Assembly: GCF_900114035.1 (NCBI RefSeq)
Contig: NZ_FORP01000016.1
Coordinates: 1 to 64,000 of the forward strand
Source of the DNA: Amycolatopsis sacchari
Lineage (GTDB): Bacteria; Actinomycetota; Actinomycetes; Mycobacteriales; Pseudonocardiaceae
Direction of reading: 5' to 3'
DNA: 64,000 bases
Shown piece by piece: positions 1,859 to 19,315 of this stretch. Position numbers and translations under genes: made by a program. The first letter of the stretch is position 1, and each line of letters begins with the position of its first letter. Under the pieces are notes generated by a model, which saw only the letters and a list, made by a program, of their open reading frames with translations, was not told the DNA's origin and did not search any database.

Positions 1859-3172
1859 TCAGTTCACACAGGCGACTTCGCCACCCGTGATGGGCGGGGG
1901 CGCGCTGGACGGCGGCGGCAGCGACCGGCCGGCGGCACCGGCGTTGGCCCGGCCGGCGGAACTCGGTGGTGCCTTCGAGGACGGGGGCGCCGACGAGGTG
2001 GTCGGCGGGGTGGCCGTGGTGGACGTCGCGCCGGGGTCGGCGGTGAGCCCGTCGACGAACTGGTGCACCTGCGCCGGGTCGACGCGCAGCACGTCCGCGC
2101 CGCCGATGACCGCGTTGCCGAGCGTGGGGATGGTGCGGAACTCGATGCGGCCGCTGTCGAGACCGCGCATCTGGCCGGCGAACTGGGTCAGGTCCCAGTT
2201 GTCGGAGAGCACCACGGACTTCTTCACGGCGGTGATCACATCACCGAGTTTCCCGGGGTTCATCAGGACGTCCCGCGACAGGACCTTGCGCGCGAGCCCC
2301 GACAGGAACGCCTGCTGCCGCGCGATCCGGTCCAGGTCCCCGTTGGGCAGGTCGTAGCGCTGCCGCACGAAGGCCAGCGCCTGCACGCCCTCGACGGTCT
2401 GCCTGCCCGCGGGCAGGTCGACGCCGGACTTGCGCTCGTGCACCGGGCCGTTCAGGCACACCTCGACCCCGCCGAGGGCCCTGGTCACCTCGTAGAAGCT
2501 GGCGAGGTTCACCTCGGCGTAGCGGTCGATCATGCCGGGCTTGCCCATGAAGTTCTCGAGCGTGGCGACGAGGTTCTGGCGGCCGGCGTTCTTCGCCTGC
2601 CGGTCGGCCTCCTTCAGGTCCACGCCCCGCTGCTGCAACTGGCGGAACCGCTCGTTGTAGGCGTAGACGAACGCCCCGTTGAGCTTGTGCTTGCCGAAGC
2701 CCCCGGCGAGTTCCACCCAGGAGTCACGCGGGAACGAGATCGCGACGGCCCGGCGCCCGTCCTGCGGGATGTGCACGAGGATCATCGTGTCGGTCTGCTT
2801 CTCGCCCTCGGCGTCCCCGGCGTGCAGCATGTCCAGCACCTCACGCGGCAGCGGGTTGCCCTGCCCGTCGGTGCGGCTGTCCATGCCCACCAGCAGGATG
2901 TCCACCGCGCCGTCGAGCGGGACCGCGTGCAACTCGTTGTCCGCGAACACTTCGCTGGTCGTCAGCCCCTGGTTCGGGTCGCCGACGAACTGCCAGCCGT
3001 ACCACGTCAGCACCAGCACGGCGACGGACACGAGTGCCACGATGGCCTTGCCGCCCCGCAGGGCGAAGACCGCGAACCACGGCCTGCGCCCCCTGGGTGA
3101 AGGGATGGGCGGCGGGGGCCATTCGGGTATCTCTTCCGTGGCGTCCTGGCGGGTCGCAACCCCGTCGGTCAC
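1859..3172 (-). CDS. LytR-CpsA-Psr (LCP) family cell wall glycopolymer ligase
   Basis: Second LCP protein, 437 aa. The GTG start at 3172 is chosen over an ATG at 3196 because AGGAGG lies 7 nt upstream of it. Domains are a proline-rich tail, one transmembrane helix (about 41-60) and an LCP domain opening with DILLVGMDSRTD and containing ISFPRDSWVEL and FVRQRYDLPNGDLDRI. It is clearly paralogous to the gene at 568-1803 and shares its CVN terminus. A -10 candidate TAATCT at 3212-3217 drives it divergently from rmlB. In mycobacteria an LCP gene (Rv3267, from memory) also sits next to rmlD, wbbL and manB. Confidence 0.9.
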   Translation of the reverse strand: MTDGVATRQDATEEIPEWPPPPIPSPRGRRPWFAVFALRGGKAIVALVSVAVLVLTWYGWQFVGDPNQGLTTSEVFADNELHAVPLDGAVDILLVGMDSRTDGQGNPLPREVLDMLHAGDAEGEKQTDTMILVHIPQDGRRAVAISFPRDSWVELAGGFGKHKLNGAFVYAYNERFRQLQQRGVDLKEADRQAKNAGRQNLVATLENFMGKPGMIDRYAEVNLASFYEVTRALGGVEVCLNGPVHERKSGVDLPAGRQTVEGVQALAFVRQRYDLPNGDLDRIARQQAFLSGLARKVLSRDVLMNPGKLGDVITAVKKSVVLSDNWDLTQFAGQMRGLDSGRIEFRTIPTLGNAVIGGADVLRVDPAQVHQFVDGLTADPGATSTTATPPTTSSAPPSSKAPPSSAGRANAGAAGRSLPPPSSAPPPITGGEVACVN

Positions 3173-5190: not shown

Positions 5191-6251
5191 GCCTCGACGG
5201 TGGCGTCGGCGCACCGGCGCCACGTGAAGCCACCGGCGTGCGCACGCCGCTCGGCGGACAGCGACGGGTCGCGGACCTCGGAAACCGCTTCCCGCAGCGC
5301 TGCGACCAGCGCGTCCACGTCGCCGTAGGGCACCAGGTGGGCGTAGCCGCCCGAGATCTCCCGCAGCGCCGGGATGTCCGTGCACACCACCGGCACGTCG
5401 CATGCAAGCGCTTCCAGCACCGGCAGGCCGAACCCCTCCTCACGCGAGGGCAGCACCAGCGCCGAAGCGCCCGCCACGACGTTACGCAAATCCACTTCGG
5501 ACAGATAACCCGCGTGCCTTGCTCGGCCCGACACGTGCACCGGGCCTGGGCCGGAGAACACCAGCGGCGGCAGCTCAGGGGCCGCCGCGTGTGCCTTGAG
5601 CAGCCAGTCCAGCCCCTTGCGCGGGTTCGAGGCGCCGACGTAGAGCAGGTACTCCGAGGGCAGCCGCAGCCGTTCGCGCGTCTCCTTGTTCGGCGGCCGC
5701 CCGGTGAACCACGCCGCGTCCACGCCCAGAGGCGTCACCTGGATCTTCTCTCGGGGCACGGAAAGGCGTTCGGCGACCGTTTCGGCTACCGCCTCCGTGG
5801 GCGTGCAAACGACGCGGGCCTGCGCCGCACCCTGGCGCACCAGCCTGGGCAGCTCGCGGTCGCTCGGCGCCAGTTCCTCCGGCGCGTCGAGGAAGGCGAG
5901 GTCGTGGATCGTCAGCACCCCGGCGGCGCGCAGCGAACGCGGCAACACGAAGTTGGTCCCGTGCACGACATCCGCCCGCCCGGCGAACAGTTCGACCGGC
6001 GGGAACGGCGAGTGCAGCCAGCTGGCCCGCAGCAGCCGCGCCGCGACGGGCATGCCGCGGGCGCGGGCACCGTGCGGGAGGACGTGCCGCAGCCGTCGCC
6101 AGCCGCGCAGCGTGAACGCCACCGCGCGAGTGTCCACATCGGACCGTGAAGCCAGCTCCTCGGCCAGCGAAGCGGTGTAGCGGCCGATGCCCGTCCGCGC
6201 CCCGAGCAAGGGGGTGCCGTCGAGCAGGACTTTCAACGGCCGGTCAGCCAC
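5166..6251 (-). CDS. GT4-type glycosyltransferase
   Basis: A 361-aa GT-B glycosyltransferase. The N-terminal domain opens with LLDGTPLLGARTGIGRYTASL. The C-terminal donor-binding domain has YVGASNPRKGLDWLLKAH and the E-x7-E segment REEGFGLPVLEALACDVPVV. The start overlaps the stop of the GT2-GT4 gene by 8 nt, so it is the last gene of a three-gene coupled operon read leftward. The sugar it adds cannot be told from sequence. The rml, wbbL and manB context suggests rhamnose- or mannose-containing envelope glycan. Confidence 0.88.
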   Translation of the reverse strand: MADRPLKVLLDGTPLLGARTGIGRYTASLAEELASRSDVDTRAVAFTLRGWRRLRHVLPHGARARGMPVAARLLRASWLHSPFPPVELFAGRADVVHGTNFVLPRSLRAAGVLTIHDLAFLDAPEELAPSDRELPRLVRQGAAQARVVCTPTEAVAETVAERLSVPREKIQVTPLGVDAAWFTGRPPNKETRERLRLPSEYLLYVGASNPRKGLDWLLKAHAAAPELPPLVFSGPGPVHVSGRARHAGYLSEVDLRNVVAGASALVLPSREEGFGLPVLEALACDVPVVCTDIPALREISGGYAHLVPYGDVDALVAALREAVSEVRDPSLSAERRAHAGGFTWRRCADATVEAYRRAAAK

Positions 6252-8751
6252 GGCTTCTGGCCAGCTTCTTCAGACGCCCGGCGGCGCGCCGGGCCAGCTC
6301 CTTCGGACCGCCGTCGGCGAGGTACTCCCGCACCAGCGCGAGGTCGCGGCGGAGGGCTTCGGTGCCCCGCAACGGTGCCGAGACCACCAGGTCCGCCGCC
6401 CCCGGCAGCCGGTCGGCGGCGGGACGCGGGTTCCGGCAGAACTCGACGAGCGGCTTGAGCGCTTCGGGCCAGGCGTACCGGCGGGCGACCGCCGCGATCC
6501 GCTCCTTGCACCCGGCGGCGAACTCCTCGTCGTACATCGCGCGTTCCAGCGCGTCCGCGAGCGCGTCGGCGTCCTCCGCGGGCACGACCACGCCGAGCTT
6601 CTCGTCCCGCACCAGGTCGGCGAACGCGTCCCCGTCGGTCGTCACGATCGGCAGGCCCGCCCACAGGTAGTCCAGCACGCGGGTGCGGAAGGCGAACGTG
6701 GTCTCGACGTGCTCGAAGTGCGTCGTCACGCCGCAGTCGGCGTCGAGCAGCCAGTTCTGCCGCTCGCCGTAGGGCACCCAGTGCTCGTTGAAGAACACGT
6801 GCTTGCCGGTCAGCCCGAGCCGGTCGGCGAGCCGCATCGTGCGCGCGCCGATGTCCATCTCCGCGACCTCGGGGTTCGGGTGCTTCATACCGAGGAACAC
6901 CAGCCGCACGTCGGGCCGCCGCTGCCGCAGCCGGTCGATCGCGCCGACGAGCGTGAGCGGGTCGAACCAGCTGTACACGCCACCGGCCCACAGCACGACG
7001 TGGTCGGTCTCGGCGATGCCGTCCAGCGTCGCGCGGAGACCGGGGCCGGTGCGCACGGGCGGTTCGGCGTGCAGGCCGAACGGGACGACGGCGAGCAGCG
7101 ACTGCGTGGTCGGGTCGGCGTCGTACAGGCGGGGGGTGAGCCTGCCGAGCGCGGCGAGGTGGCCGAGCCAGAAGTGGCGCTGCCGCTCGGAGGCGCAGAG
7201 GAAGAAGTCGCCGCGCTCCAGCTGCGCGTCGAGCACGCGCGTGACGCCCACGAGGTCCGCGGCGCGCTTGTCGTCCGGCGCGCTCTTGCCCTGTTCGAGC
7301 AGCTCCAGGTGCATCGGGTCGTACAGGTCGCACACCACGATCTTGTGCGAGTGCTCCGCCTTGAGCGCGGGTGCCATCTCCAGCACGTGCCCTTGCAGGA
7401 TCACCACGTCGGCCCACTCGACCGGCTCGGTGAGGTCGCGCTTGCGGGCGGCGCTGACGGGGAACGGCGCGGGCGGGGGAGCGGCGACCGGGTTCACGGT
7501 GACCAGCCGGACGTCGTGCTCGGGGGCGAGGGCGCTCGCGATGTTCCAGGCGCGGATCGCGGGGCCGGCCATCCGCTCGGTGATCGCGTCCCCGGTCAGC
7601 ACGAGGATCTTGCGCCGCTGCCCGAACACGCTCTCGATGCCGAAGGCTTCGACGAGGATCTCGTGTGCGGCGAGGTAGCGCGGCAGCGGGTAGGCGGGCT
7701 CAAGTGCCTTGCGCAGCAACGGGATCAGGTCCGCGTCGGTGCGCACCCTGGCGGCCTGCTCGGCCTTGCGGGACTCGGCAAGCGAGGGCAGCAGCTCGAC
7801 GAACTGGTCGATCGCCAGCACTCCCGCGAGCGTCGTCCTCGGCACCTCGACCGGCGTCGTGTCGACGGGCTTCACGCCCTTCGCGAGGTCGAGCTGCGTC
7901 GCGTCCAGCTCGCCGCGGGCGGTCGCGCGGCGGACGGCCAGCGCGAGCGCGGCGGGCAGCACCTTCGCCAGCGTCTCGTCGGAGACGTTCTTGTACAGCG
8001 CGGCGAGTGCGTTGCGCTCCAGCAGGAACGTCTCGCGGCCCGTGTCCGGAGCGTCCACTTCGGACATCGTGGCGTGGTGGCGGTGGTAGGCCAGCGACTC
8101 CGGCACGTACCGCACGCGCCAGCCCCGCAGGTTCAGCCGCCAGCCGAGGTCCACGTCCTCGTAGAACATGAAGAAGCGCTCGTCGAAGCCGCCCAGCTCG
8201 GTGAACACGCTCGCGCGCACGAACATCGCCGAGCCCGTGGCGAACAGGACGTCCTTGGCGGCCTCGTGCTCTCCGGACGGCAGGTCGGCGAGCGGGCTGC
8301 CCGCGTGTCGCTTGTAGCCCATGCCGAACCACGTCAGCCCGGCGTCCACGAAGTCAGTACCGGTCCCGTCCCAGTCCAGCACCTTGCTCGCGACGGCGGC
8401 GACGGTCGGTTCCGCGGTCAGGGTCGCGACGGCCGCGCGCACCCAGTTCCGGTCGGGGCGGGCGTCGTTGTTGAGGAACGCGAGGACGCTGCCCTGTGCG
8501 TGCCGCGCGCCGAGGTTGCAGCCACCGGCGAAGCCGAGGTTTTCGGAGGACTCGACCAGCTTGATCCCGGGGACCGCCTTGAGCCGGGCCACGTCGTCGC
8601 CGCCGGAGGCGTTGTCGACGCAGATCACCTCGAGCCGGGGGTAGTCCAGGTCCTCGCGCAGGGCGCGCAGGCACGTGATCGTGTCGTCCGCGCCGCGGTA
8701 GTTCACCACGATCACCGAGACGAGCGGTAAAGGCGAATCCCCCTGGCCCAA
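6244..8751 (-). CDS. two-domain glycosyltransferase (GT2 plus GT4)
   Basis: An 835-aa fusion of two glycosyltransferase folds. The N-terminal GT-A part shows VSVIVVNYRGADD, VDNASGGDDVA, NNDARPDRNW and FFMFYEDVDLGWRL, as in rhamnosyl/galactofuranosyl GT2 enzymes. After an alpha-helical linker, from about residue 390, a GT-B part starts at KILVLTGDAITERMAGPAIR and continues to DADALADALERAMYD. The start is TTG at 8751, preceded by an ideal CGGAGG with 6-nt spacing; the in-frame upstream extension has no family-like sequence. The middle gene of the leftward glycosyltransferase operon. One protein could add two different sugars in succession. Confidence 0.85.
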   Translation of the reverse strand: MGQGDSPLPLVSVIVVNYRGADDTITCLRALREDLDYPRLEVICVDNASGGDDVARLKAVPGIKLVESSENLGFAGGCNLGARHAQGSVLAFLNNDARPDRNWVRAAVATLTAEPTVAAVASKVLDWDGTGTDFVDAGLTWFGMGYKRHAGSPLADLPSGEHEAAKDVLFATGSAMFVRASVFTELGGFDERFFMFYEDVDLGWRLNLRGWRVRYVPESLAYHRHHATMSEVDAPDTGRETFLLERNALAALYKNVSDETLAKVLPAALALAVRRATARGELDATQLDLAKGVKPVDTTPVEVPRTTLAGVLAIDQFVELLPSLAESRKAEQAARVRTDADLIPLLRKALEPAYPLPRYLAAHEILVEAFGIESVFGQRRKILVLTGDAITERMAGPAIRAWNIASALAPEHDVRLVTVNPVAAPPPAPFPVSAARKRDLTEPVEWADVVILQGHVLEMAPALKAEHSHKIVVCDLYDPMHLELLEQGKSAPDDKRAADLVGVTRVLDAQLERGDFFLCASERQRHFWLGHLAALGRLTPRLYDADPTTQSLLAVVPFGLHAEPPVRTGPGLRATLDGIAETDHVVLWAGGVYSWFDPLTLVGAIDRLRQRRPDVRLVFLGMKHPNPEVAEMDIGARTMRLADRLGLTGKHVFFNEHWVPYGERQNWLLDADCGVTTHFEHVETTFAFRTRVLDYLWAGLPIVTTDGDAFADLVRDEKLGVVVPAEDADALADALERAMYDEEFAAGCKERIAAVARRYAWPEALKPLVEFCRNPRPAADRLPGAADLVVSAPLRGTEALRRDLALVREYLADGGPKELARRAAGRLKKLARSRG

Positions 8752-8782
8752 TGCCGACCTCCGTGCTCCGGTTGAAAGGAGC

Positions 8783-9691
8783 TTAGCGGCGCGCCCAGTG
8801 TCGCCAGACCTGCCCTCGCCGCACTGTCGACCGCCGGGTGATCGCCCGGCGGTCGCGCAGGGCCGCGGGTACCCGGACGAGTACTTCGGTGAGCACCCGC
8901 ACACGGAGCGCGATGCGGAAGTTCGCCCCCTCGGGCACGTTGCGGCGCAGGGGAAGTAGTGCGGTGATCGCGGCGAACCGCGCCAGCTCGCGGAGGACGA
9001 CCCACGCGGGTGCACACCGTACAAGGGTGAGCAGGCGGTTGCGCTCGTTCCACAGGTGGAACTGCCGCGACCCGGGCCTCGTGCTCACGCCATGACGGTG
9101 GGTCACCCGCGCCTCCGGCACCGTCACGATGTCGTGCCCCGCCAGGCGCAGCCGCCACGCGGTGTCGGTGTCCTCGTAGTAGCAGAAGAAACCGGCGGGC
9201 ACGCCGCCGATCTCGCGCAGCACGTCCGCGCGCAGCAGGGCCGCACCGCCGCAGAACCCGAAGGCCGGCGTGTCGAGCGTGTCCGCGCCGTAGCCGTCCG
9301 CGGTCAGCCGGACCCCGACGCACTGGGGAGTGCCGTCGGGGCGGTTCAGCCGGGAGCTCGCGGCCGCCGCCGGGCCCAGCGCGTCCTCCAGCGCGCCCAG
9401 CCAGCCGGGCTCGGGCTCGGCGTCGTCGTTGAGCCAGGCCATCAACGGCGTGTCCACAAGGGACAGCGCGGCGGCCATCGCGCCCGCGTACCCGGCGTTG
9501 CGGGGCAGGCGCACGACCCGCGGCTGCGACGGGTGCCCGGCGAGCAGGCGGGCGGTGCCGTCGTCCGAGGCGTTGTCCACCACGAGCGTCCGATGTGGAC
9601 GATCCTGGGCGGCGAGCGCGTCCAGGCAGGCGGTGATCTGCCCGGCACCCCGCCACGTGACGACCACCACCGTGGAGCTGACCTCGGTCAC
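8783..9691 (-). CDS. GT2 family glycosyltransferase
   Basis: A 302-aa GT-A enzyme with STVVVVTWRGAGQ, VVDNASDDGTARLL, WLNDDAEPEPGW (metal/nucleotide-sugar site) and FFCYYEDTDTAWRLRLAGHD. It resembles rhamnosyltransferases of the WbbL/RfbF type. The GTG at 9691 is chosen because TATTGT lies exactly 7 nt upstream, the leaderless arrangement; no Shine-Dalgarno is present. The gene is divergent from the GT4 gene at 9711 with only 19 bp between start codons, and 31 nt separate its stop from the next gene of the operon. Confidence 0.85.
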   Translation of the reverse strand: MTEVSSTVVVVTWRGAGQITACLDALAAQDRPHRTLVVDNASDDGTARLLAGHPSQPRVVRLPRNAGYAGAMAAALSLVDTPLMAWLNDDAEPEPGWLGALEDALGPAAAASSRLNRPDGTPQCVGVRLTADGYGADTLDTPAFGFCGGAALLRADVLREIGGVPAGFFCYYEDTDTAWRLRLAGHDIVTVPEARVTHRHGVSTRPGSRQFHLWNERNRLLTLVRCAPAWVVLRELARFAAITALLPLRRNVPEGANFRIALRVRVLTEVLVRVPAALRDRRAITRRSTVRRGQVWRHWARR

Positions 9692-9710
9692 GGCGAGCAC
9701 AATACGGCTC
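9692..9710. promoter_or_regulatory. 19-bp bidirectional leaderless promoter
   Basis: The whole gap between two divergent GTG starts is 19 bp. On the minus strand TATTGT (9699-9704) lies 7 nt before the GTG at 9691. On the plus strand CACAAT (9698-9703) lies 7 nt before the GTG at 9711. The two -10 elements therefore share nearly the same bases, and each -35 would fall inside the other gene. Confidence 0.5.
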
Positions 9711-10748
9711 GTGTCGGAACTCGTGGTCATCGCCGAGCAGCTGCTGGCGCCCGTGCCGGGCGGCACCGGCCGCTACACCGCCGAGCTGCTGCGTGCGCTG
9801 GGCGAGACGGCGCCGCCGGGCTGGGAGGTGACCGGTGTCGTGGCCCGGCGCCCGAAAGAGCAGGTGACGGGCCTGCGGATGCTGCCGCTGCCGCCGCGGG
9901 CGCTGGTCGCCGCGTGGCAGCTGGGGGTGCCGTACTGGCCGGGCGGGGACGCCGTCCACGCACCGACCCCGCTCGCGCCGCCACGCGGGCCGGTGTCGGT
10001 GACGGTGCACGACACGGTGCCGTGGACGCATCCCGAGACGCTCACCCCGCGCGGGGTGTCGTGGCACCGGCGGATGATCGGTAGGGCGGCCCGCCGTGCC
10101 CGCGGACTCGTCGTGCCGACGCGCGCGGTGGCCGACGACCTGTGGCGGTGGGTGCCGGTTTCGGTGCCCGTGCACGTCGCCGGGCACGGGGTGGCGGCGG
10201 CGTTGTCGGCCCCCGAGGATGTCCCTGACCTGCCGGAACGTTTCGTACTGGCGGTCGGCACGCTCGAACCCCGCAAGGGCATCGACGTGCTGCTCGACGC
10301 GATGGCGGAGCTGGACGTGCCGCTCGTGCTGGTCGGCCAGCCCGGCTGGGGCGGCGTCGAGGCGCGGCGGGACGGCGTGGACGTGCGGGTGCTGGGGCGG
10401 CTGCCGGACGCGCGGCTCGCGGGTGTGTTGCGGCGGGCGGCGGTGCTGGCGGTGCCGAGCCGGGCCGAGGGGTTCGGGTTGCCGCTGCTCGAAGCGATGG
10501 CGGCCGGGGTGCCGGTGGTGCATTCGGACGCCCCGGCGCTGGTGGAGGTGGCCGGAGGGGCCGGGTTGTGCGTGCCGAGGGGCGACGCGCGGGCGCTCGC
10601 CGCGGGGCTGCGGGAGGTGCTGGGGTCGCCGTCGCGGGCATCCGCGCTGGTCGAAGCGGGCCGGGCGCGGGCGGCGGAGTTCTCGTGGCGGCGGTCGGCG
10701 GAAGCCGTGTGGCGGATCCACACCGGGAGCGAAGTTGTGAGTTCCTGA
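9711..10748 (+). CDS. GT4-type glycosyltransferase
   Basis: A 345-aa GT-B enzyme. PVPGGTGRYTAELLRALGE marks the N-terminal acceptor domain. VGTLEPRKGIDVLLDAM and PSRAEGFGLPLLEAMAAG (E-x7-E) mark the donor domain. The GTG at 9711 is predicted to be leaderless. It begins a rightward pair of glycosyltransferases, followed 34 nt later by a close relative. Specificity unknown. Confidence 0.87.
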   Translation: MSELVVIAEQLLAPVPGGTGRYTAELLRALGETAPPGWEVTGVVARRPKEQVTGLRMLPLPPRALVAAWQLGVPYWPGGDAVHAPTPLAPPRGPVSVTVHDTVPWTHPETLTPRGVSWHRRMIGRAARRARGLVVPTRAVADDLWRWVPVSVPVHVAGHGVAAALSAPEDVPDLPERFVLAVGTLEPRKGIDVLLDAMAELDVPLVLVGQPGWGGVEARRDGVDVRVLGRLPDARLAGVLRRAAVLAVPSRAEGFGLPLLEAMAAGVPVVHSDAPALVEVAGGAGLCVPRGDARALAAGLREVLGSPSRASALVEAGRARAAEFSWRRSAEAVWRIHTGSEVVSS

Positions 10749-10782
10749 CCAAACGGACTTTGATCGGTCGTACTCTGCACTG

Positions 10783-11931
10783 GTGGGACGGAGCGAACCG
10801 AGTGTGCTGATCGACGCGACGGCCGTGCCCGCGGACCGCGGCGGCGTCGGCCGCTACGTCGACTCGCTCGTCCAGGCGCTCGACGAGGGCGGTGCGCCGG
10901 TCAGCGTGGTGTGCCAGCCGCGGGACGTCCGGTTGTTCGCGCGGCTCGCGCCGCGGTCGCGGATCGTGCCTGCCGGGCCGTCGACGGTGACCAGGACGGC
11001 GCGGCTCGCGTGGGAGCAGACGACGCTGCCGATGCTCGCGCGGCGGCTGAACGTGCAGGTCGTGCACTCGCCGCACTACACGATGCCGCTGGCGAGCCCG
11101 GCCGCGTCGGTGGTGACCCTGCACGACGCGACGTTCTTCACCGACGCGGTGCTGCACTCGTCGGTCAAGGCGCGGTTCTTCCGCGGCTGGACGGTGACGG
11201 CGCTGCGCCGCGCGACGATGTGCGTCGTGCCGAGCCACGCGACGGCGAACGAGCTGGCGCGGGTGACGCGGGCGAGGCCGAGGGCGCTGGAGATCATCGA
11301 GCACGGGGTGGACGTGGAGCGGTTCCACCCGCCGTCGCCGGAGGAGGTCAGGGCCGCGCGGGCGGCGATCGGGCTGGAGACCCAGCCGTACGTGGCCTTC
11401 CTGGGGGCGCTGGAGCCGCGGAAGAACGTGCCGGCGTTGATCCGGGGCTTCGCGAAGGCGGTCGAACACCGCGCTTCGCCGCCCGCTTTGGTGCTCGCGG
11501 GGCAGCCGGGGTGGGACACGCAGGTGGAGAAGGCGCTGGACGCCGCGCCGTTGCGGCTGCGGGTGATCCGGGCGGGGTACCTGCCGTTCGGGACGCTGGC
11601 CGGGTTCCTCGGCGGGGCGGAGCTCGTGGCGTATCCCAGCCTCGGGGAGGGTTTCGGACTGCCCGTGCTGGAGGCGATGGCGTGCGGGGCGTGCGTGCTG
11701 ACCACCCGGCGCCTCTCGCTGCCCGAGGTAGGCGGGGATGCGGTGGCGTACTGCGGCGTCGGCGCGGGCGACGTGGCAGTGGCGCTGTCGGAGCTGCTGG
11801 ACGACCCGGGTCGCCGTGCGCAGCTCGCCCAAGCGGCACAGCGGCGGGCGAAGGACTTCTCGTGGACCACCAGCGCGGAGCGGCACCGCGAGGCGTACGG
11901 AAAGGCGTGGCTGGCCCACCGGCGGGGCTGA
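10783..11931 (+). CDS. GT4-type glycosyltransferase
   Basis: A 382-aa GT-B enzyme with LIDATAVPADRGGVGRYVD at the N-terminus, FLGALEPRKNVPALIRGF and PSLGEGFGLPVLEAMACG in the donor half. The GTG at 10783 has TACTCT (10771-10776) 6 nt before it, so it probably has its own leaderless transcript despite the short gap from the preceding gene. The stop at 11931 lies 5 nt before the -10 box of the first RNA repeat unit. Confidence 0.87.
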   Translation: MGRSEPSVLIDATAVPADRGGVGRYVDSLVQALDEGGAPVSVVCQPRDVRLFARLAPRSRIVPAGPSTVTRTARLAWEQTTLPMLARRLNVQVVHSPHYTMPLASPAASVVTLHDATFFTDAVLHSSVKARFFRGWTVTALRRATMCVVPSHATANELARVTRARPRALEIIEHGVDVERFHPPSPEEVRAARAAIGLETQPYVAFLGALEPRKNVPALIRGFAKAVEHRASPPALVLAGQPGWDTQVEKALDAAPLRLRVIRAGYLPFGTLAGFLGGAELVAYPSLGEGFGLPVLEAMACGACVLTTRRLSLPEVGGDAVAYCGVGAGDVAVALSELLDDPGRRAQLAQAAQRRAKDFSWTTSAERHREAYGKAWLAHRRG

Positions 11932-11948
11932 CTGGTAGCGTTGGGGGT

Positions 11949-12019
11949 GCGAGGCCCCCGTAGGGCCGAGAAGTGAGCCCGTGGTGCGTCCGGACGGTCG
12001 TGTCGCGGGCTTTGCGCTG
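11949..12019 (+). ncRNA. structured RNA repeat unit 1 (DUF3800-associated)
   Basis: First of four 71-nt units. Hairpin 1 is GGCCC-CCGTA-GGGCC. After a GAGAAGTG linker comes hairpin 2, a long stem beginning AGCCCGTGGTGCG and closing with CGCGGGCT, followed by TTTGCGCTG. The -10 candidate TAGCGT (11936-11941) lies 7 nt upstream of the first conserved base. In this copy the second stem has 13 consecutive pairs including four G-U wobbles that would be A-C mismatches on the other strand, which assigns the RNA to the plus strand. It ends 1 nt before the stop codon of the convergent DUF3800-like gene. Confidence 0.6.
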
Positions 12020-12020
12020 T

Positions 12021-12563
12021 CTAGAGCTGGGTGATCCGCCCGATGCCGGCCGAGACGCGCCGCCGCCAGTCGCCACCCGCGCCGTAACACCAGGCCACGG
12101 CGTCGGGGATCCACAAGAGCGGGGTGGCAGTGGATTCGTGGTGTTGATGCACCACCGGAGGGGACGTCTCGTAGGTACCCAGCACCCGGTAGATCGTTGC
12201 CTGATCATGCCGGTCCTGCTCCTGCCGACTGTCGATCACCACGCGGTGCGCGCCCGCCGCGACGAGATCGCGCACCGCTTCCGCGAGGCACCGCTGCCGG
12301 TCCTGTTCCTCGGTCTTCGGGGTGCACGAGGTCGTGTAGATCCACGAGATCGCCGGAAGCGCCGCGATCCGGTCGGCGAGTAGCCGGCGCCTGCGCGGCT
12401 TCTCCTTTTTGAAGTGCAGCTCACGTTGTCCCGGGAGGAGCAACGCGGCGAGCTGCTTCCGGGTGGGGACGAGCTGAGCGGGGTCGACAACGCTCACGCA
12501 GACGATGTAGGCACCGTCCCGCCCGGACTCGTCGATGAAGGCATGCACTGGCACCTCGAACAT
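12021..12563 (-). CDS. DUF3800-like protein, copy A
   Basis: A 180-aa protein starting MFEVPVHAFIDESGRD. The near-N-terminal IDESG, the REL-H-K segment around residue 48, VVIDSR and the late PDAVAW fit the DUF3800 family, which has a predicted RNase H-like fold with these acidic residues as the candidate metal site. No characterized function is known to me. The start at 12563 is placed by alignment with paralog B; a longer reading from 12614 lacks support. The gene is convergent with RNA unit 1. About two thirds of residues match copy B by eye, so the pair arose by tandem duplication. Confidence 0.75.
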   Translation of the reverse strand: MFEVPVHAFIDESGRDGAYIVCVSVVDPAQLVPTRKQLAALLLPGQRELHFKKEKPRRRRLLADRIAALPAISWIYTTSCTPKTEEQDRQRCLAEAVRDLVAAGAHRVVIDSRQEQDRHDQATIYRVLGTYETSPPVVHQHHESTATPLLWIPDAVAWCYGAGGDWRRRVSAGIGRITQL

Positions 12564-12656
12564 CCTGCTCGGAGGGGGCGACAGTTTTGCGCGGGAACGC
12601 GGAGCGCCGCGCAATGCAGTGGCGCTCCGGAGCAGCTCCCTGCTACCGTCGTTGGT

Positions 12657-12727
12657 GCGAGGCCCCCTTAGGGCCGAGAAGTGAGCCCGTGGTGCGTCCG
12701 GACGGTCGTGTCGCGGGCTTTGCGCTG
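12657..12727 (+). ncRNA. structured RNA repeat unit 2 (DUF3800-associated)
   Basis: Same 71-nt design as unit 1: hairpin GGCCC-CCTTA-GGGCC, GAGAAGTG linker, long second stem, TTTGCGCTG. TACCGT at 12644-12649 lies 7 nt upstream, and GCAGTGGCG lies 19 nt before that, as in units 3 and 4. It ends 1 nt before the stop codon of DUF3800-like copy B, repeating the geometry of unit 1. Its promoter diverges from the 5' end of copy A. Confidence 0.6.
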
Positions 12728-12728
12728 T

Positions 12729-13268
12729 CTAGACCACGATGACCTTCGAAACGACCGGCATGACCCGGCGGCGCCAGTCGCCGCCGGCGCCGTAGCACCA
12801 CGCGACGGCGTCGGGCACCCACAGCAGGGGTGCGGATGCCGAGTTGAGGTGGTGGTGGGCCAGCTCGGTCTTCGGGTGTTGCCCCAGCGTGCGGTAGATC
12901 GTCGTCCGGTCGTGGATGTCGCGGTGGTCGCGGCTGTCGAGGACGACTCTGTGCGCGCCTAGCTCGACGAGGTGGTGGAACGCCTGCTCCAGGCACCGCT
13001 GCCGGTCACGTTCCTCGGTCTTCGGGGTGCACGCGGTCTCGTAGATGTGCGTGACGAGCGGCAGCCCGGCGATCCGATCGGCGAGCAGCCGCCTCCGCGG
13101 TGGTTTCTCTGCCTTGAAGTGCAACTCCCGTTGCCCGGGGAGGAGCAGCGCCGACAACTGCTTCCGCGCGGGCGCAAGACAACCGGGGTCGACGACCGCG
13201 ACGCAGATGAAGTAGCGGCGGTCCCGACCGGACTCGTCGATGAAGGCATGCACCGGCACCCGGAACAT
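12729..13268 (-). CDS. DUF3800-like protein, copy B
   Basis: A 179-aa paralog of the protein at 12021-12563, starting MFRVPVHAFIDESGRD and sharing LLLPGQRELHFK, TPKTEERDRQRC, VVLDSR and PDAVAWCYGAGGDWRRRV. The putative catalytic residues are all kept, so the gene looks intact. It is convergent with RNA unit 2, and RNA units 3 and 4 lie upstream of its 5' end. The 60 bp upstream of both DUF genes are similar (GCGACAGTTTTGCGCGGG), suggesting shared regulation. Function not known. Confidence 0.75.
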   Translation of the reverse strand: MFRVPVHAFIDESGRDRRYFICVAVVDPGCLAPARKQLSALLLPGQRELHFKAEKPPRRRLLADRIAGLPLVTHIYETACTPKTEERDRQRCLEQAFHHLVELGAHRVVLDSRDHRDIHDRTTIYRTLGQHPKTELAHHHLNSASAPLLWVPDAVAWCYGAGGDWRRRVMPVVSKVIVV

Positions 13269-13351
13269 CCTGCTTGGAGGGTGCGACAGTTTTGCGCGGG
13301 GACGCGGGATGCAGTGGCGAGAGCGCGAAGCTTCCCGCTACCGTCACTGGT

Positions 13352-13422
13352 GCGAAGCCCCCGTAGGGCGGAGAAGTGAGCCCGTGACGCGTCCGGACGG
13401 TCGTCTCACGGGCTTTGCGCTG
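13352..13422 (+). ncRNA. structured RNA repeat unit 3
   Basis: A 71-nt unit with TACCGT (13339-13344) 7 nt upstream. Hairpin 1 is slightly weakened (GCCC-CCGTA-GGGC, outer pair lost). In hairpin 2 the pair that is U-G in units 1 and 2 is U-A here, and a G-U becomes A-U, keeping the helix; one pair turns into a C-C mismatch. No DUF3800 gene follows. Instead the sequence jumps to the GCGCGGGGACGCG block that elsewhere lies upstream of a DUF3800 start. Confidence 0.58.
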
Positions 13423-13482
13423 CCGCGCGGGGACGCGCAATGCAGTGGCGCGCGAGCCGAGCTCCCTGCTACCGTCGACAGC

Positions 13483-13553
13483 GCGAGGCCCCCTTAGGGC
13501 CGAGAAGTGAGCCCGTGACGCGTCCGGACGGTCGTCTCACGGGCTTTGCGCTG
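13483..13553 (+). ncRNA. structured RNA repeat unit 4
   Basis: Last 71-nt unit, 60 nt after unit 3, with TACCGT at 13470-13475 exactly 7 nt upstream. Hairpin 1 is GGCCC-CCTTA-GGGCC. Hairpin 2 is identical to that of unit 3, with the loop region CGTCCGGACGG common to all copies. It ends 60 nt before wbbL. The U-tract is only three residues, so termination may be weak and could read into wbbL. Confidence 0.58.
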
Positions 13554-13613
13554 TTCGGGGGGCCGATGCGGCCCTGCGGGTCACCGTCGTGGGGGAAGCG
13601 GCACAATGGCCCG

Positions 13614-14477
13614 GTGACCGAGCCGACACGTTATGGCGACGGCCTCGCCGTGGTCGTGGTGACCTACTTCCCCGGGGACGACCTCGCCCGTTTCCTCGAC
13701 ACGCTCGAGAAAGCCACCACCCGCGACGTGCGCGTGGTGCTCGCGGACAACAGCGTCGAACCCGTCGAAACCCTCGATCGCGCCGCCGAGCGGGAGAACG
13801 TGCGGGTGCTGCGCATCGGCGAGAACCTCGGCTACGGGGGCGGCGCCAACCGCGGCGTGGCCGAACTCGACGACAGCTACGGCTGGGTCGTGGTCGCCAA
13901 CTCCGACCTCGAGTGGGAGCCCGGCTCACTCGATGTGCTCCTCGAAGCCGCGCAACGCTGGCCGCGCGGGGGCGCTTTCGGGCCCCTCATCCGCGAACCC
14001 GACGGCGCCGTCTACCCCTCGGCCCGCCTGCTGCCCTCCTTCGGCCGCGGCATCGGGCACGCCGTGTTCGGCAAGATCTGGCCCGCCAACCCGTGGACCC
14101 GCGCCTACCGGCAGGAACGCGCCCCCGAGGAACGCACCGCGGGCTGGCTCTCCGGTTCCTGCCAGCTGTTCCGCCGCGAGGCCTTCGACTCCGTCGACGG
14201 CTTCGACTCGCGCTACTTCATGTACTTCGAGGACGTCGACCTCGGCGACCGGCTCGGCCGCGCCGGCTGGCAGAACGTGTACGTCCCCTCCGCCTCGGTG
14301 ACCCACATCGGCGGCAAGGCGACCTCCCGCGCACCGAAGAAGATGCTGGCCGCGCACCACCAGAGCGCCTACCGCTACCTCGCCGACCGCCACCGCGGCC
14401 CGGCCTGGCGCCCCGTGCTGGCCGCGGTCAAGCTCGGGCTCGCCGTGCGGCTCAAGATCGAGACGCGCGGCCGCTGA
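13614..14477 (+). CDS. wbbL: decaprenyl-PP-GlcNAc L-rhamnosyltransferase
   Basis: A 287-aa GT2 enzyme closely matching mycobacterial WbbL as I recall it: VVVTYFPGDDLARFLDTL, GENLGYGGGANRG, GPLIREPDGAVYPSAR, NPWTRAYRQE, GWLSGSCQLFRREAF and YFMYFEDVDLGDRLGRAGW. It adds L-rhamnose from dTDP-rhamnose to decaprenyl-PP-GlcNAc, building the linker between peptidoglycan and arabinogalactan. GTG at 13614 has CACAAT 6 nt upstream and no Shine-Dalgarno, so it is probably leaderless. It lies near manB, as in mycobacteria; rmlD is displaced 8 kb away by the glycosyltransferase genes. Confidence 0.92.
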   Translation: MTEPTRYGDGLAVVVVTYFPGDDLARFLDTLEKATTRDVRVVLADNSVEPVETLDRAAERENVRVLRIGENLGYGGGANRGVAELDDSYGWVVVANSDLEWEPGSLDVLLEAAQRWPRGGAFGPLIREPDGAVYPSARLLPSFGRGIGHAVFGKIWPANPWTRAYRQERAPEERTAGWLSGSCQLFRREAFDSVDGFDSRYFMYFEDVDLGDRLGRAGWQNVYVPSASVTHIGGKATSRAPKKMLAAHHQSAYRYLADRHRGPAWRPVLAAVKLGLAVRLKIETRGR

Positions 14478-14478
14478 A

Positions 14479-14826
14479 TCAGAAGCCTTCGAGACGGCGG
14501 GACAGATCGGAGCGGCCGGTGGTCTGCGTGGTGGTGGGGATGAGGCCCCCGACCTCCTCCTCGCGGGAGTCCGGGCGCACCGGCGTCATGCCGACCCGGG
14601 TGTCCGGCTTCTCGAGGCTGCCCTGCACCGAGTCGATCACCGACGAGGGCACCACGGCCGTCGTGTCCGGGTCCTCGCCGTGGTCGATCCTGTCGATCGC
14701 CGAACGCGGGATCTGCTGGGTGTTCGCCGCGTCCATCGGCGACGTCGCGTCGTCGGGCGTGACCACGAAGGCGCCGCGTGCCCGCGCCCGGGCCAGCAAC
14801 GCGTCCGCACGCTCGCGGGGGTCCAT
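14479..14826 (-). CDS. conserved actinobacterial protein of unknown function
   Basis: A 115-aa hydrophilic protein with a basic N-terminal helix (MDPRERADALLARARARGAF) and a low-complexity, Thr/Pro/Ser-rich remainder; no recognised domain and no membrane segment. ATG at 14826 has GGAGG 8 nt upstream, and a TACCCT -10 candidate lies near 14890. It is convergent with wbbL (1 nt between stops) and divergent from manB. Codon use is like its neighbours, which supports a real gene, but I do not recognise its role. Confidence 0.6.
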   Translation of the reverse strand: MDPRERADALLARARARGAFVVTPDDATSPMDAANTQQIPRSAIDRIDHGEDPDTTAVVPSSVIDSVQGSLEKPDTRVGMTPVRPDSREEEVGGLIPTTTQTTGRSDLSRRLEGF

Positions 14827-14967
14827 CCGCTCGGCCTCCCGACTCGACCTGAGGCCCTCTCCGACCGGGGCCGCCCCTGTGCTGTCTAGGGTAGGCCCTC
14901 CGGGGCGTCGCCGTCAGCAAAATGCGCGGCCTGTCGCCCGGCGGCTGCTCGATCACGGGAGGAAGTT

Positions 14968-16047
14968 GTGACGCCGACGGAGAATGTCGACGCCGTGGTG
15001 CTGGTGGGCGGCAAGGGCACGCGGCTGAGGCCGCTGACCCTGTCCGCGCCCAAGCCGATGCTGCCCACCGCCGGGGTGCCGTTCCTCAGCCACCTGCTGT
15101 CACGGATCCGCGCGGCCGGCATCCAGCACGTCGTGCTGGGCACGTCGTACCGCGCCGAGGTCTTCGAGGACTACTTCGGCGACGGCTCGTCCCTCGGCCT
15201 CGACCTGGAGTACGTGGTGGAGGAGGAGCCGCTCGACACGGGCGGCGCGATCCGCAACGTGTACGACAAGTTGCGGGCCGACCACGCTGTGATCTTCAAC
15301 GGCGACATCCTCTCGGGTGCCGACCTGCACGCCCTCGTGCAGGCGCACCTCGACGCCTCGGCCGACGTGACGCTGCACCTGCAGCGCGTCGACGACCCGA
15401 GCCGCTTCGGTTCGGTGCCCACCGACGCCGACGGCCGCGTCACGGCGTTCCTGGAGAAGACGCCCAACCCGCCGACCGACCAGATCAACGCCGGCTGCTA
15501 CGTGTTCCGCCGCTCGGTGGTCGAGTCCATTCCCGCCGGTCGCCGCGTGTCCGTCGAGCGTGAGACGTTCCCCGGGCTGCTGGCCGACGGGGCACACGTG
15601 CACGGGTTCGTCGACGCGTCGTACTGGCTGGACGTCGGCACCCCGGAGGCCTTCGTGCGCGGCTCGGCGGACCTGGTGCGCGGGCTCGCGCCGACGTCGG
15701 CCCTGCCCGGTCCCACCGGGGAGTCGCTGGCGCTCGACGGGGCGACGGTCGCGTCCGGCGCGGAGGTGCTCGGCGGGTCCACCGTCGGCGCCGGTGCGCA
15801 GGTCGCGGCGGGGGCGCGCGTGACCGGTTCGGTGCTGTTCGACGGGGTCGCCGTCGCGGAGGACGCCGTGGTGGAGGACTCCGTGCTCGGCGCGGGTGCC
15901 CGGGTGGGCAAGGGTGCGGTGCTGCGCGGGGTCGTGCTCGGCGACGGGGCGGTCGTCGGAGCGGGCTGCGAACTGCTGCACGGCGCCAGGGTGTGGCCGG
16001 AGATGGTGCTGGCCGACGGTTCGATCCGCTTCTCCAGCGACTGCTAG
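14968..16047 (+). CDS. manB: mannose-1-phosphate guanylyltransferase
   Basis: A 359-aa nucleotidyltransferase: VLVGGKGTRLRPLTLSAPKPMLP (pyrophosphorylase signature with catalytic Arg and Lys) in an N-terminal Rossmann-like domain, FNGDILSGADL (metal-binding Asp), and from about residue 250 a left-handed beta-helix of hexapeptide repeats (GATVASGAEVLGGSTVGAG). Its place next to wbbL matches Rv3264c (ManB/ManC type), which supplies GDP-mannose for phosphatidylinositol mannosides and glycans. A rhamnose-type nucleotidyltransferase cannot be fully excluded. GTG start with GGAGG 5 nt upstream. Confidence 0.88.
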   Translation: MTPTENVDAVVLVGGKGTRLRPLTLSAPKPMLPTAGVPFLSHLLSRIRAAGIQHVVLGTSYRAEVFEDYFGDGSSLGLDLEYVVEEEPLDTGGAIRNVYDKLRADHAVIFNGDILSGADLHALVQAHLDASADVTLHLQRVDDPSRFGSVPTDADGRVTAFLEKTPNPPTDQINAGCYVFRRSVVESIPAGRRVSVERETFPGLLADGAHVHGFVDASYWLDVGTPEAFVRGSADLVRGLAPTSALPGPTGESLALDGATVASGAEVLGGSTVGAGAQVAAGARVTGSVLFDGVAVAEDAVVEDSVLGAGARVGKGAVLRGVVLGDGAVVGAGCELLHGARVWPEMVLADGSIRFSSDC

Positions 16048-17460: not shown

Positions 17461-17984
17461 CGGGCCGCCGCCACCAGTTCCGCCAGGTCCTCCGAGCCCG
17501 CGGGCAGCGCGTCGACCGGCCACCACCGCAGGTCGTCCGACTCGTCGCTGCGCACCGGTTCCGCCCCGCGCGGCGCGCGTACCGCGAACCGCACGTCGAA
17601 GTGCCGCGTCGGCACCCCGAGCGAGCAGGTGATCGGGTGCACGTCCAGGTGCACCGGCTCCGGCTCGATCCGCAGGTCCTCGATCCCGGACTCCTCCCGC
17701 GCCTCCCGCAACGCCGCTTCGACGAGCGAGGGGTCCGACTCCTCGCAGTGCCCGCCGAGCTGCAGCCACCGGCCGACCCGCGGGTGCAACGTCAGCAGCA
17801 CCCGGGAACCGTCCGCGTCGAGCAGCACCGCCGAAGCCGTGATGTGCCCGGCCTCGCACGAACGCGAGCACGCGTCCTCCCGCGCCGCCAGGAACCCCAG
17901 GAACGCCTGCCGCAACGACTCCTGCGCCGCGGCAGCGGGACGCCATTTGTCCAGAGTGGACAGAGCATCGGCGTGCAGTGTCAC
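17457..17984 (-). CDS. Nudix hydrolase
   Basis: A 175-aa Nudix protein. The Nudix box reads [19 protein letters not shown] followed by REESGIEDL. An N-terminal segment of about 45 residues precedes it. GTG start overlaps the fbiB stop (GTGA) and its own stop overlaps the GntR start (ATGA). Being locked between fbiB and a regulator suggests it handles a nucleotide related to F420 synthesis or is a housecleaning enzyme; the substrate is unknown. Confidence 0.85.
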
Positions 17985-19315
17985 AGTTCCACCAGTCCTT
18001 CGCCGGGCTCCAGCGGCCCGCGGTCGGGCACCGCAACCGGGTGCCCGACCGCGACGGCGCCCAGCGGCTGCCACTCCGCGCCGAGCCCCAGCACGTCCCG
18101 CACCACGTCCGCCGCGAAGATCGTCGAGCCGATCCAGCACGAGCCCAGGTCCTCCGCCGCCAGCGCGACCAGGAAACCCTGCACCGCCGCGCCGCCCGCG
18201 ACCGTGAACATCGTGCGCTCGCAGGCGTTGCGCCGGTCGTCCGGATACGTGTGCGCGCCGTCGGGCACCAGTAACGGCAGGACGACCTCGGGCGCCTGGA
18301 ACAGGATGTCGCCGCGGCTCACGCGCCGCGCGATCTGCTCGTCCGTGAACCCGTCGCCGCGCAGGTCCGCGCGCCACGACTCCCGCATCGCCTCCAGCAG
18401 TTTCGTGCGCAGGCCGCGGTCACGCAGCCACACGAACCGCACCGGTTTCGTGTGGTGCGGCGCCGGCGCGGTGAGCCCCGCGGCGATCGCCCGGCGCAGC
18501 GCCCCGGGATCGACCGCCTCGTCGGTGAACCGGCGAACGGACCGGCGGGCGGGCACCGCTTCACGGCGGCCCTGCGCGATCGCCTCCGTGACGCCGAGGC
18601 GGAACATGTCCTCCTCGACCGGGCGGACCAGCTTCCGGGCCGTCGAACCGTCGTCCACGAGGGACAGTCCGCGCACCACGGCGACCGGTGTCGCCTTCAG
18701 CTTGCCCTTGACCAAATCCGCCGCCGCGGCGATCTCGTCCGCCACGGCGATCTCGGTGACCTGCAGCTCGTTGCCCTGCCCGTCGACCTCACCCTCGTAG
18801 GAGTGCAGCACCTCCAGGCCCGACGAGCCGATCGCGGCGTCGGTCTGCCCGACGCGCCACGCGCGGCCCATCGTGTCCGTGATGACGACGGCGACCTCGA
18901 CGCCGAGCCGTTCCCGCAGCCCGTTGCGCAACGCCAGCGCCGAAGCGTCGGGATCGGCGGGCAGCAGCGCGATCTCGCCCTTGTCCACATTGGAGGCGTC
19001 GACACCGGAAGCCGCCTGCACGATGCCGATGCGGTTCTGCGTGATGAGCGTGCGGCCGAACCGGGCCAGCACGCGCACCGCCTCCTCCTCGACGAGCCGC
19101 CGCCGCTCCGCGTCGCGCGCCTCCGGGTCCTCCGGCACCCGGACGAGCCGGCCCTCGGCCTTCGACACGATCTTGCTGGTGACCACGACGACGTCGCCGG
19201 ACCGCAGCCACCGCGCCGCCGAGGCGATCGCGCCCGTCAGGTCGTCGCCGGGCCGGAACTCCGGCAGGCCCTCGACCGGCAGGACCTCCAGCCGGTCCGT
19301 GGAATGCTCAGTCAA
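17981..19315 (-). CDS. fbiB: coenzyme F420-0:L-glutamate ligase / dehydro-F420 reductase
   Basis: A 444-aa bifunctional protein of the usual actinobacterial FbiB length. Residues 1-240 form the CofE ligase ([55 protein letters not shown]) that adds glutamates to F420-0. The remainder is a nitroreductase-like FMN domain ([35 protein letters not shown]). The start is TTG at 19315, overlapping the fbiA stop by 8 nt, which implies translational coupling. Confidence 0.95.

Follow-up and report, generated by a model that had tools for sequence, protein, structure and literature searches.

Weinberg reportedly described a series of DUF3800 motifs in 2017, none of them with a known function, and to our knowledge no function has been assigned to the DUF3800 RNA motifs of Rfam; in the literature searched, none of the listed papers mentioning DUF3800 deals, by its title, with DUF3800 function. 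Here we analyze a locus of Amycolatopsis sacchari in which four near-identical 73-nt RNA units accompany two paralogous genes for DUF3800-like proteins, all within a 64-kb piece of the 7.6-Mb genome (hereafter the window). The analysis yields the base pairing of the RNA, its strand, a promoter-like box, a modelled protein fold and an uneven loss of RNA and gene, and we read the locus, at a probability just short of even, as a two-component RNA-protein module in which the RNA would restrain a nuclease.

The nearest functional precedent is RCd22, which neutralizes AbiF through direct RNA-protein contact (PMC12373285). The abiF RNA (RF03085) resembles the RNA studied here in that a repeated RNA motif adjoins a gene of nuclease type, in that case within a prophage (PMC12373285); it differs in that its protein is HEPN-related and its RNA lies upstream of the gene, and Rfam gave no abiF match in the window. 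Type III antitoxins are described as upstream repeats co-transcribed with the toxin (PMC12373285). DUF3800 proteins with an RNase H fold accompany some Cas12a2 (V-A2) and VI-F loci (PMC10910872, PMC12669027); in those settings they belong with CRISPR loci, and the DUF3800 protein of Cas12a2 loci is joined to TPR.

At the gathering threshold Rfam 15 returned no match in the window or in 20 relative loci, and relaxed searches returned nothing relevant at E ≤ 10 in 11850-13650 or at E ≤ 5 in 16 relative loci. The layout was compared with one Rfam DUF3800 RNA, DUF3800-IV (RF02963). This RNA is likewise convergent with its gene, the DUF3800 match ending 4-11 nt past the RNA in five of eight loci; one query found no DUF3800 gene within the 3.1-kb locus in the other three (L285, L286, L289), and TANNNT-like boxes are seen by eye upstream in several of the eight. 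It differs in length (91 nt), in sequence and in its partner, a longer, Pfam-level DUF3800 protein. Our covariance model R1 gives no match in its locus L281, and conversely scans of the window and of relative loci reported no DUF3800-IV. DUF3800-IV occurs in 8 of 297 genomes and is carried by one of 30 Pfam-level DUF3800 loci (ten scanned by E-value, 20 at gathering score), while R1 matches none of these 30 loci, which were taken from the canonical Pfam DUF3800 matches listed. DUF3800-I (RF02969) was found in none of 198 genomes, a comparison made uninformative by its equal absence from 14 control genomes. Because the layout, seemingly including orphan RNAs that lack a gene, is common to DUF3800-IV, we take the window RNA to be a new family of the DUF3800-RNA kind, in agreement with a preceding sequence-only reading of the window, which had proposed a possibly new relative of these motifs.

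The RNA units and genes of the window

The order along the window is RNA1, gene 1, RNA2, gene 2, RNA3, RNA4, with RNA1 and RNA2 pointing at the 3′ ends of genes 1 and 2 and ending immediately before their stop codons (Table 1). Unit spacings of 708 and 695 bp reveal a tandem duplication of the RNA-plus-gene unit, and RNA3 and RNA4 are a 131-bp duplication of RNA and upstream region that did not include the gene.

Table 1. Features of the RNA-gene locus in the A. sacchari window
Feature	Position	Strand	Basis
-10-like box TAGCGT of RNA copy 1	11936..11941	+	TANNNT enriched at fixed position upstream of 94 relatives
Structured RNA copy 1, convergent with gene 1	11947..12019	+	Model R1, 94.9 bits
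Gene 1, DUF3800-like protein, 180 aa	12021..12563	-	ORF, sub-threshold Pfam match, relatives
-10-like box TACCGT of RNA copy 2	12644..12649	+	
Structured RNA copy 2, convergent with gene 2	12655..12727	+	Model R1, 93.7 bits
Gene 2, DUF3800-like protein, 179 aa, modelled RNase H2-like fold	12729..13268	-	
-10-like box TACCGT of RNA copy 3	13339..13344	+	
Structured RNA copy 3, without own gene	13350..13422	+	Model R1, 97.0 bits
-10-like box TACCGT of RNA copy 4	13470..13475	+	
Structured RNA copy 4, without own gene	13481..13553	+	Model R1, 96.4 bits
Two 131-nt tandem units, 13293-13423 and 13424-13554 (upstream region and RNA each)	13293..13554	+	Repeat analysis

The four plus-strand units, which the sequence-only reading had placed at 11949, 12657, 13352 and 13483, are borne out, with 1-7 pairwise differences over 73 nt, and the box that it had set 7 nt before the first conserved base was recovered as a TANNNT box beginning exactly 11 nt upstream of the 73-nt unit in all four copies. 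Hairpin 1, the GAGAAGTG linker, a long second hairpin and CTTTGCG are present as it had described. Its claim that substitutions fall in the second stem and mostly keep pairing stood in part: three pairs of stem 2 vary between the copies, and two of them remain paired (G-U to A-U, U-G to U-A), but the third is lost (U-G to C-C), and copy 3 carries extra changes in hairpin 1 and adopts a different fold when folded alone. A pattern search of the whole genome (≤3 mismatches) found the four copies of the window and no others, with no match on the reverse strand or to the reversed pattern. Genome-wide repeats apart from the gene, named in that reading as contrary evidence, were thus not found; the tie to the gene holds in this genome, but gene-less copies occur in others.

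Both facing DUF3800-like genes that had been predicted exist, though their products, at 13.2 and 19.8 bits, do not reach the 21-bit cut-off of Pfam PF12686, and 13 of 34 relatives match this family at E ≤ 0.01 (best 2.6e-5); on sequence comparison the window proteins are sub-threshold relatives of Pfam DUF3800. The gene 2 protein is confidently modelled with an RNase H2-like fold. In the structure comparison with RNase H2, the first 19 rows show 8-21% identity, and Argonaute and integrase rows appear lower in the list. The candidate acidic active-site residues D11, E12, E54, D120 and D153 are invariant in 34 of 34 aligned relatives and D111 is kept in at least 90%. Besides this low identity, the protein differs from RNase H2 (RNase HII) in being RNA-linked and patchy rather than housekeeping. 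A sequence search of the PDB gave rows that look like chance only (best E 0.047), and PADLOC and NCBIfam gave no relevant family among the proteins submitted.

Structure, strand and linkage among relatives

Relatives were first sought by comparing the gene 2 protein with 297 genomes from the family to which the window belongs, and 148 of them gave a protein match. In a MAFFT alignment of 35 RNA copies (33 distinct), a 19-pair two-hairpin structure is occupied by 92.2% standard pairs, with a covariation of 0.382 and 12 pairs changed on both sides; sliding the partner by 1-3 columns lowers this to at most 42.7% paired and a covariation of at most 0.122, and none of 500 shuffles came up to the observed values. 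Unaided, RNAalifold recovered the second hairpin, lengthened by pairing of linker and 3′ tail and with 10 double-changed pairs; it did not call hairpin 1. Covariation reaches 0.517 in alignment A5 (102 rows, seven weak reverse-strand matches included) and 0.579 in A6 (50 rows), both of which were built with R1 and lean toward structure by construction. Length varies across the family from 71 to 75 nt. The letters that change least are the apical-loop CCGGAC, kept in 93 of 94 copies and in 48 of 50 when the set is widened, and the linker AAGTG, with 78 of 94 and 41 of 50. By eye, the letters TCCGG are common to the RNA loop and the SGR codons of the gene, which we set aside as probable chance.

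Since the element sits at the 3′ end of the gene in nearly all loci, it might be no independent RNA but a 3′ untranslated region or bidirectional terminator of the minus-strand gene. The plus strand of the four window copies folds better than chance (z from -2.6 to -3.4), and of two copies folded on the minus strand (z of -0.9 and -3.41) one folds well. We nevertheless find such an element hardly credible. In A5 minus 8 plus-strand rows, 141 GU cells stand against 29 AC cells (82 distinct rows), favoring the plus strand. A -10-type box is the only strong signal upstream of 94 copies: TANNNT starts at -11 in 52 of them and within -16..-5 in 86, with a single further start elsewhere in the scanned stretch, and T at -14 and G at -13 are the most frequent letters, resembling an extended -10. 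The near-invariant loop and linker also speak against a terminator, as do the RNAs that persist where no gene is left or that are repeated in tandem by themselves, and the plus-strand RNA of the sequence-only reading is upheld by the GU asymmetry and the box together.

The RNA and the gene are closely linked. By eye, the RNA is readable directly beyond the 3′ end of the gene in 29 of 30 loci (that of the window and its best relatives), and the remaining locus, L023, also has an RNA. Among the matches listed, 121 of 150 RNAs have a protein match within 1 kb, invariably on the opposite strand (121/121); it lies on the 3′ side of the RNA in 117 of these pairs, and in 108 of the 117 the RNA is 5-46 nt from its end. 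Conversely, 114 of the 150 proteins listed (some of them fragments) have an RNA within 1 kb; at the other 36 listed protein loci R1 finds the RNA in 35, and for the last one, G001, the RNA is ~840 nt away. The RNA is present in all 80 loci picked by protein profile (the best 80 of 122), which come mostly from Amycolatopsis, Lentzea, Saccharothrix, Actinokineospora, Prauserella and relatives, with two Acidimicrobia assemblies. Distances between the RNAs correlate with those between the proteins (Spearman 0.559, 0 of 2000 permutations; 76 of the 80 loci, four with short reading frames being dropped), as expected of a jointly inherited unit. With the covariation, the strand and the modelled fold, this linkage supports the actinobacterial RNA-protein module with an RNase H-fold protein that had been suggested from the letters.

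Two RNA copies stand on the same strand in 14 of the 80 loci, one of them partial. In L109, hairpin 2 alone is repeated directly behind a full RNA (2639-2672, minus strand), a partial duplication, and L112 holds a lone RNA ~2.8 kb from the gene (9389-9453, plus strand) that keeps both hairpins and lacks the GAGAAGTGA linker, perhaps decayed or altered.

The presence of the RNA beside nearly all genes examined and its near-invariant core would also suit a ribonucleoprotein effector, whose nuclease would depend on the RNA for activation or as a scaffold, for instance against phage nucleic acid, with no variable guide. The predicted RNase H2/Argonaute-like fold and the DUF3800 proteins of some Cas12a2 and VI-F loci agree with such an effector. 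We think it unlikely, as a cofactor should decay after loss of the enzyme, yet many gene-less RNAs stay paired, and PADLOC gave no match.

Gene loss and movement of the cassette

The two genes directly flanking the window locus are found in synteny across the genus, and a glycosyltransferase gene marking the site, beside which the site was read, was found in 18 of 19 genomes. At least one DUF3800-like gene is intact at nine of the 18 sites, all nine of which have the RNA. At the nine others the gene bears an in-frame stop (L170), is truncated or reduced to remnants (L160, L163, L164), survives as a remnant (L162) or as a piece of ≤19 residues (L168), was not detected (L159) or is missing (L156, L167); a strong RNA (75-98 bits) remains at six of these sites, and the other three lack it. 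Among the matches listed, 29 RNAs have no listed gene; no gene piece is seen at 15, and at the other 14 the gene is in fragments or carries deletions or frameshifts, with long stretches in a few cases (L223, L227, L238, L246). An alignment of the gene-less RNAs is 91.8% paired; three of its 35 rows are weak matches, reverse or partial, and another, L248, has a long protein match 840 nt off. Minus the three weak rows, 557 of 608 cells pair. Most keep, by eye, a TANNNT-like box, and an orthologous gene-less site in a Lentzea-type genus (L239 vs L245) shows paired changes in hairpin 1.

An RNA with a regulatory job of its own, for which the DUF3800 protein would be a dedicated processing or turnover nuclease, would account for gene-less RNA being common and RNA-less genes rare, and for two genomes (G130, G257) that have the RNA and no protein match at E ≤ 0.001. 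Over 323 syntenic pairs, which are not independent, mean identity is 85.6% for the RNA, 68.1% for the gene and 57.7% for the 59-nt promoter stretch, and the RNA exceeds the gene in 322. The stretch 60-460 nt past the RNA is about as conserved (84.5%), so high identity alone is not peculiar to the RNA. We consider this explanation unlikely but, like the effector, still a live one: the patchy presence of the RNA, in 126 of 297 genomes of the family and 6 of 396 in a phylum sample (own genome included), is unlike that of a housekeeping RNA, and so are its carriage by plasmids and a phage and the several paralogous cassettes per genome. Among the phylum matches, G376 (33 bits) is a locus without the gene and may be false, and G334 is the same DNA as the Mycolicibacterium crocinum plasmid locus described below. 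A record named Candidatus Melainabacteria (L091, genome G011) also bears the cassette; a same-coordinate genome is placed in the family of the window, and the record is probably a mislabelled or mixed bin.

A tblastn search of 72,556 plasmid records detected relatives in 87, among them plasmids of Rhodococcus, Mycobacterium, Clavibacter and Arthrobacter; among 50,697 phage records there were 2 with a relative, and both are mycobacteriophage Gaia. Of 14 such loci sampled (13 plasmids and one phage), 12 have the RNA by R1, and one of the 12, on an R. fascians plasmid, has another gene between RNA and DUF3800 gene. The copies of Gaia and the M. crocinum plasmid are 87% identical along a 612-bp alignment whose limits are a point 4-13 nt inside the annotated start of the gene and the 5′ end of the RNA, with nothing beyond; their proteins are 88% identical and their RNAs agree at 73 of 75 positions. 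These bounds mean that the unit common to phage and plasmid is gene and RNA alone, and the aligned sequences show that the pair has passed as a single unit between a phage lineage and a plasmid lineage.

The phage protein matches phrog_1818 (unknown function) weakly in PHROGs (E 0.024). Among viral contigs, a profile search found no relative and a second RNA pattern no match; contig L172, a match to the RNA pattern, is by eye not this RNA and has no R1 match at E ≤ 10, and the Gaia protein query found one 90,460-base contig, the same size as Gaia. A constant protein partner was sought and rejected: eight proteins encoded upstream on plasmids or phage have no common Pfam family, and eight compared by BLASTP (seven the same) show mutual relations no better than E 0.39. 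By eye, the flank of L181 (Dermacoccus plasmid) resembles a transposase piece. L185 (Rhodococcus sp. AH-ZY2 plasmid) holds at 2507-2740, again by eye, a diverged RNA-like stretch missed by R1, with a GGCAATAGCC hairpin, GGAAGCG and CTCCGGAG, which may be a further subfamily.

A cassette common to plasmid and phage in different flanks, together with the RNase H-like fold and the lower-ranking Argonaute and integrase rows, could suggest an RNA-guided nuclease or transposon-type (OMEGA-like) system, in which the RNA would be a guide scaffold or mark the end of an element. We regard it as very improbable, since the aligned copies showed no variable segment attached to the RNA, the 3′ end of the RNA abuts the gene, an all-against-all comparison of the 80 loci gave no near-identical cassette-only copies in new flanks (best 72%), and the genus keeps a single site throughout. 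The selfish element and the RNA-guided activity that the sequence-only reading had left open accordingly found no support, the former for want of near-identical cassettes in different flanks and of a second site in the genus, the latter for want of a variable stretch. Of its options, a toxin/antitoxin-like relation fits best but is unproven.

By eye, the ORFs around the window locus (6244-16047) read as glycosyltransferase and sugar-nucleotide genes, and an ORF farther on (17981-19315, minus strand) resembles a bifunctional F420 ligase of the FbiB/CofE type that carries a fused nitroreductase-like domain.

A proposed working of the module

If the RNA restrains the nuclease, it would be transcribed from its own promoter, fold, and bind the DUF3800 protein via the near-invariant CCGGAC apical loop and AAGTG linker, keeping a metal-dependent nuclease in check. 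Loss of the RNA, through loss of the plasmid or phage or through an infection that halts transcription, would then free the nuclease to cut nucleic acid. Tandem RNA copies would increase the antitoxin dose, and a broken gene would leave a harmless RNA able to persist. Such a module would be a type III-like RNA antitoxin, set apart by its convergent layout and by a new toxin fold. It shares with the type III systems (ToxIN, CptIN, TenpIN) the two-part design of structured RNA and nuclease, the RNA often in several copies, and the fold of ToxN differs from the RNase H2-like fold modelled for the window protein.

Several points weigh against this restraint of a nuclease by the RNA. Unlike type III antitoxins, the window RNA is convergent with the gene and has its own promoter-like box, the near pairs listed being without exception on opposite strands. 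Antitoxins are expected to coevolve fast, unlike an apical core that is nearly constant across very diverged proteins. The RNA is also lost at three of the nine syntenic loci without an intact gene, and two plasmid loci (L181, L185) have the gene and no R1 match for the RNA. Orphan RNAs with kept structure could equally signal an independent RNA job, and decayed orphans are under-counted because the set was found by RNA score. PADLOC matched neither of the two window proteins.

More tentatively still, and leaning against it ourselves, we raise the idea that all DUF3800 RNAs belong to one general conflict system, in which a short RNA, transcribed toward the nuclease gene, would gate a nuclease of RNase H2 fold. 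This would be a toxin-antitoxin or phage-defence design unlike those described in fold and layout, carried on actinobacterial chromosomes, plasmids and phages, in which orphan RNAs would give immunity against incoming copies. Through the present analysis an orphan DUF3800 motif becomes a small, testable two-part system: the RNA is tied to its gene in nearly all copies examined from plasmids, a phage and soil actinobacteria, including the 612-bp unit of Gaia and the M. crocinum plasmid, its convergent layout is common with DUF3800-IV, and the protein has a confident RNase H2-like model.
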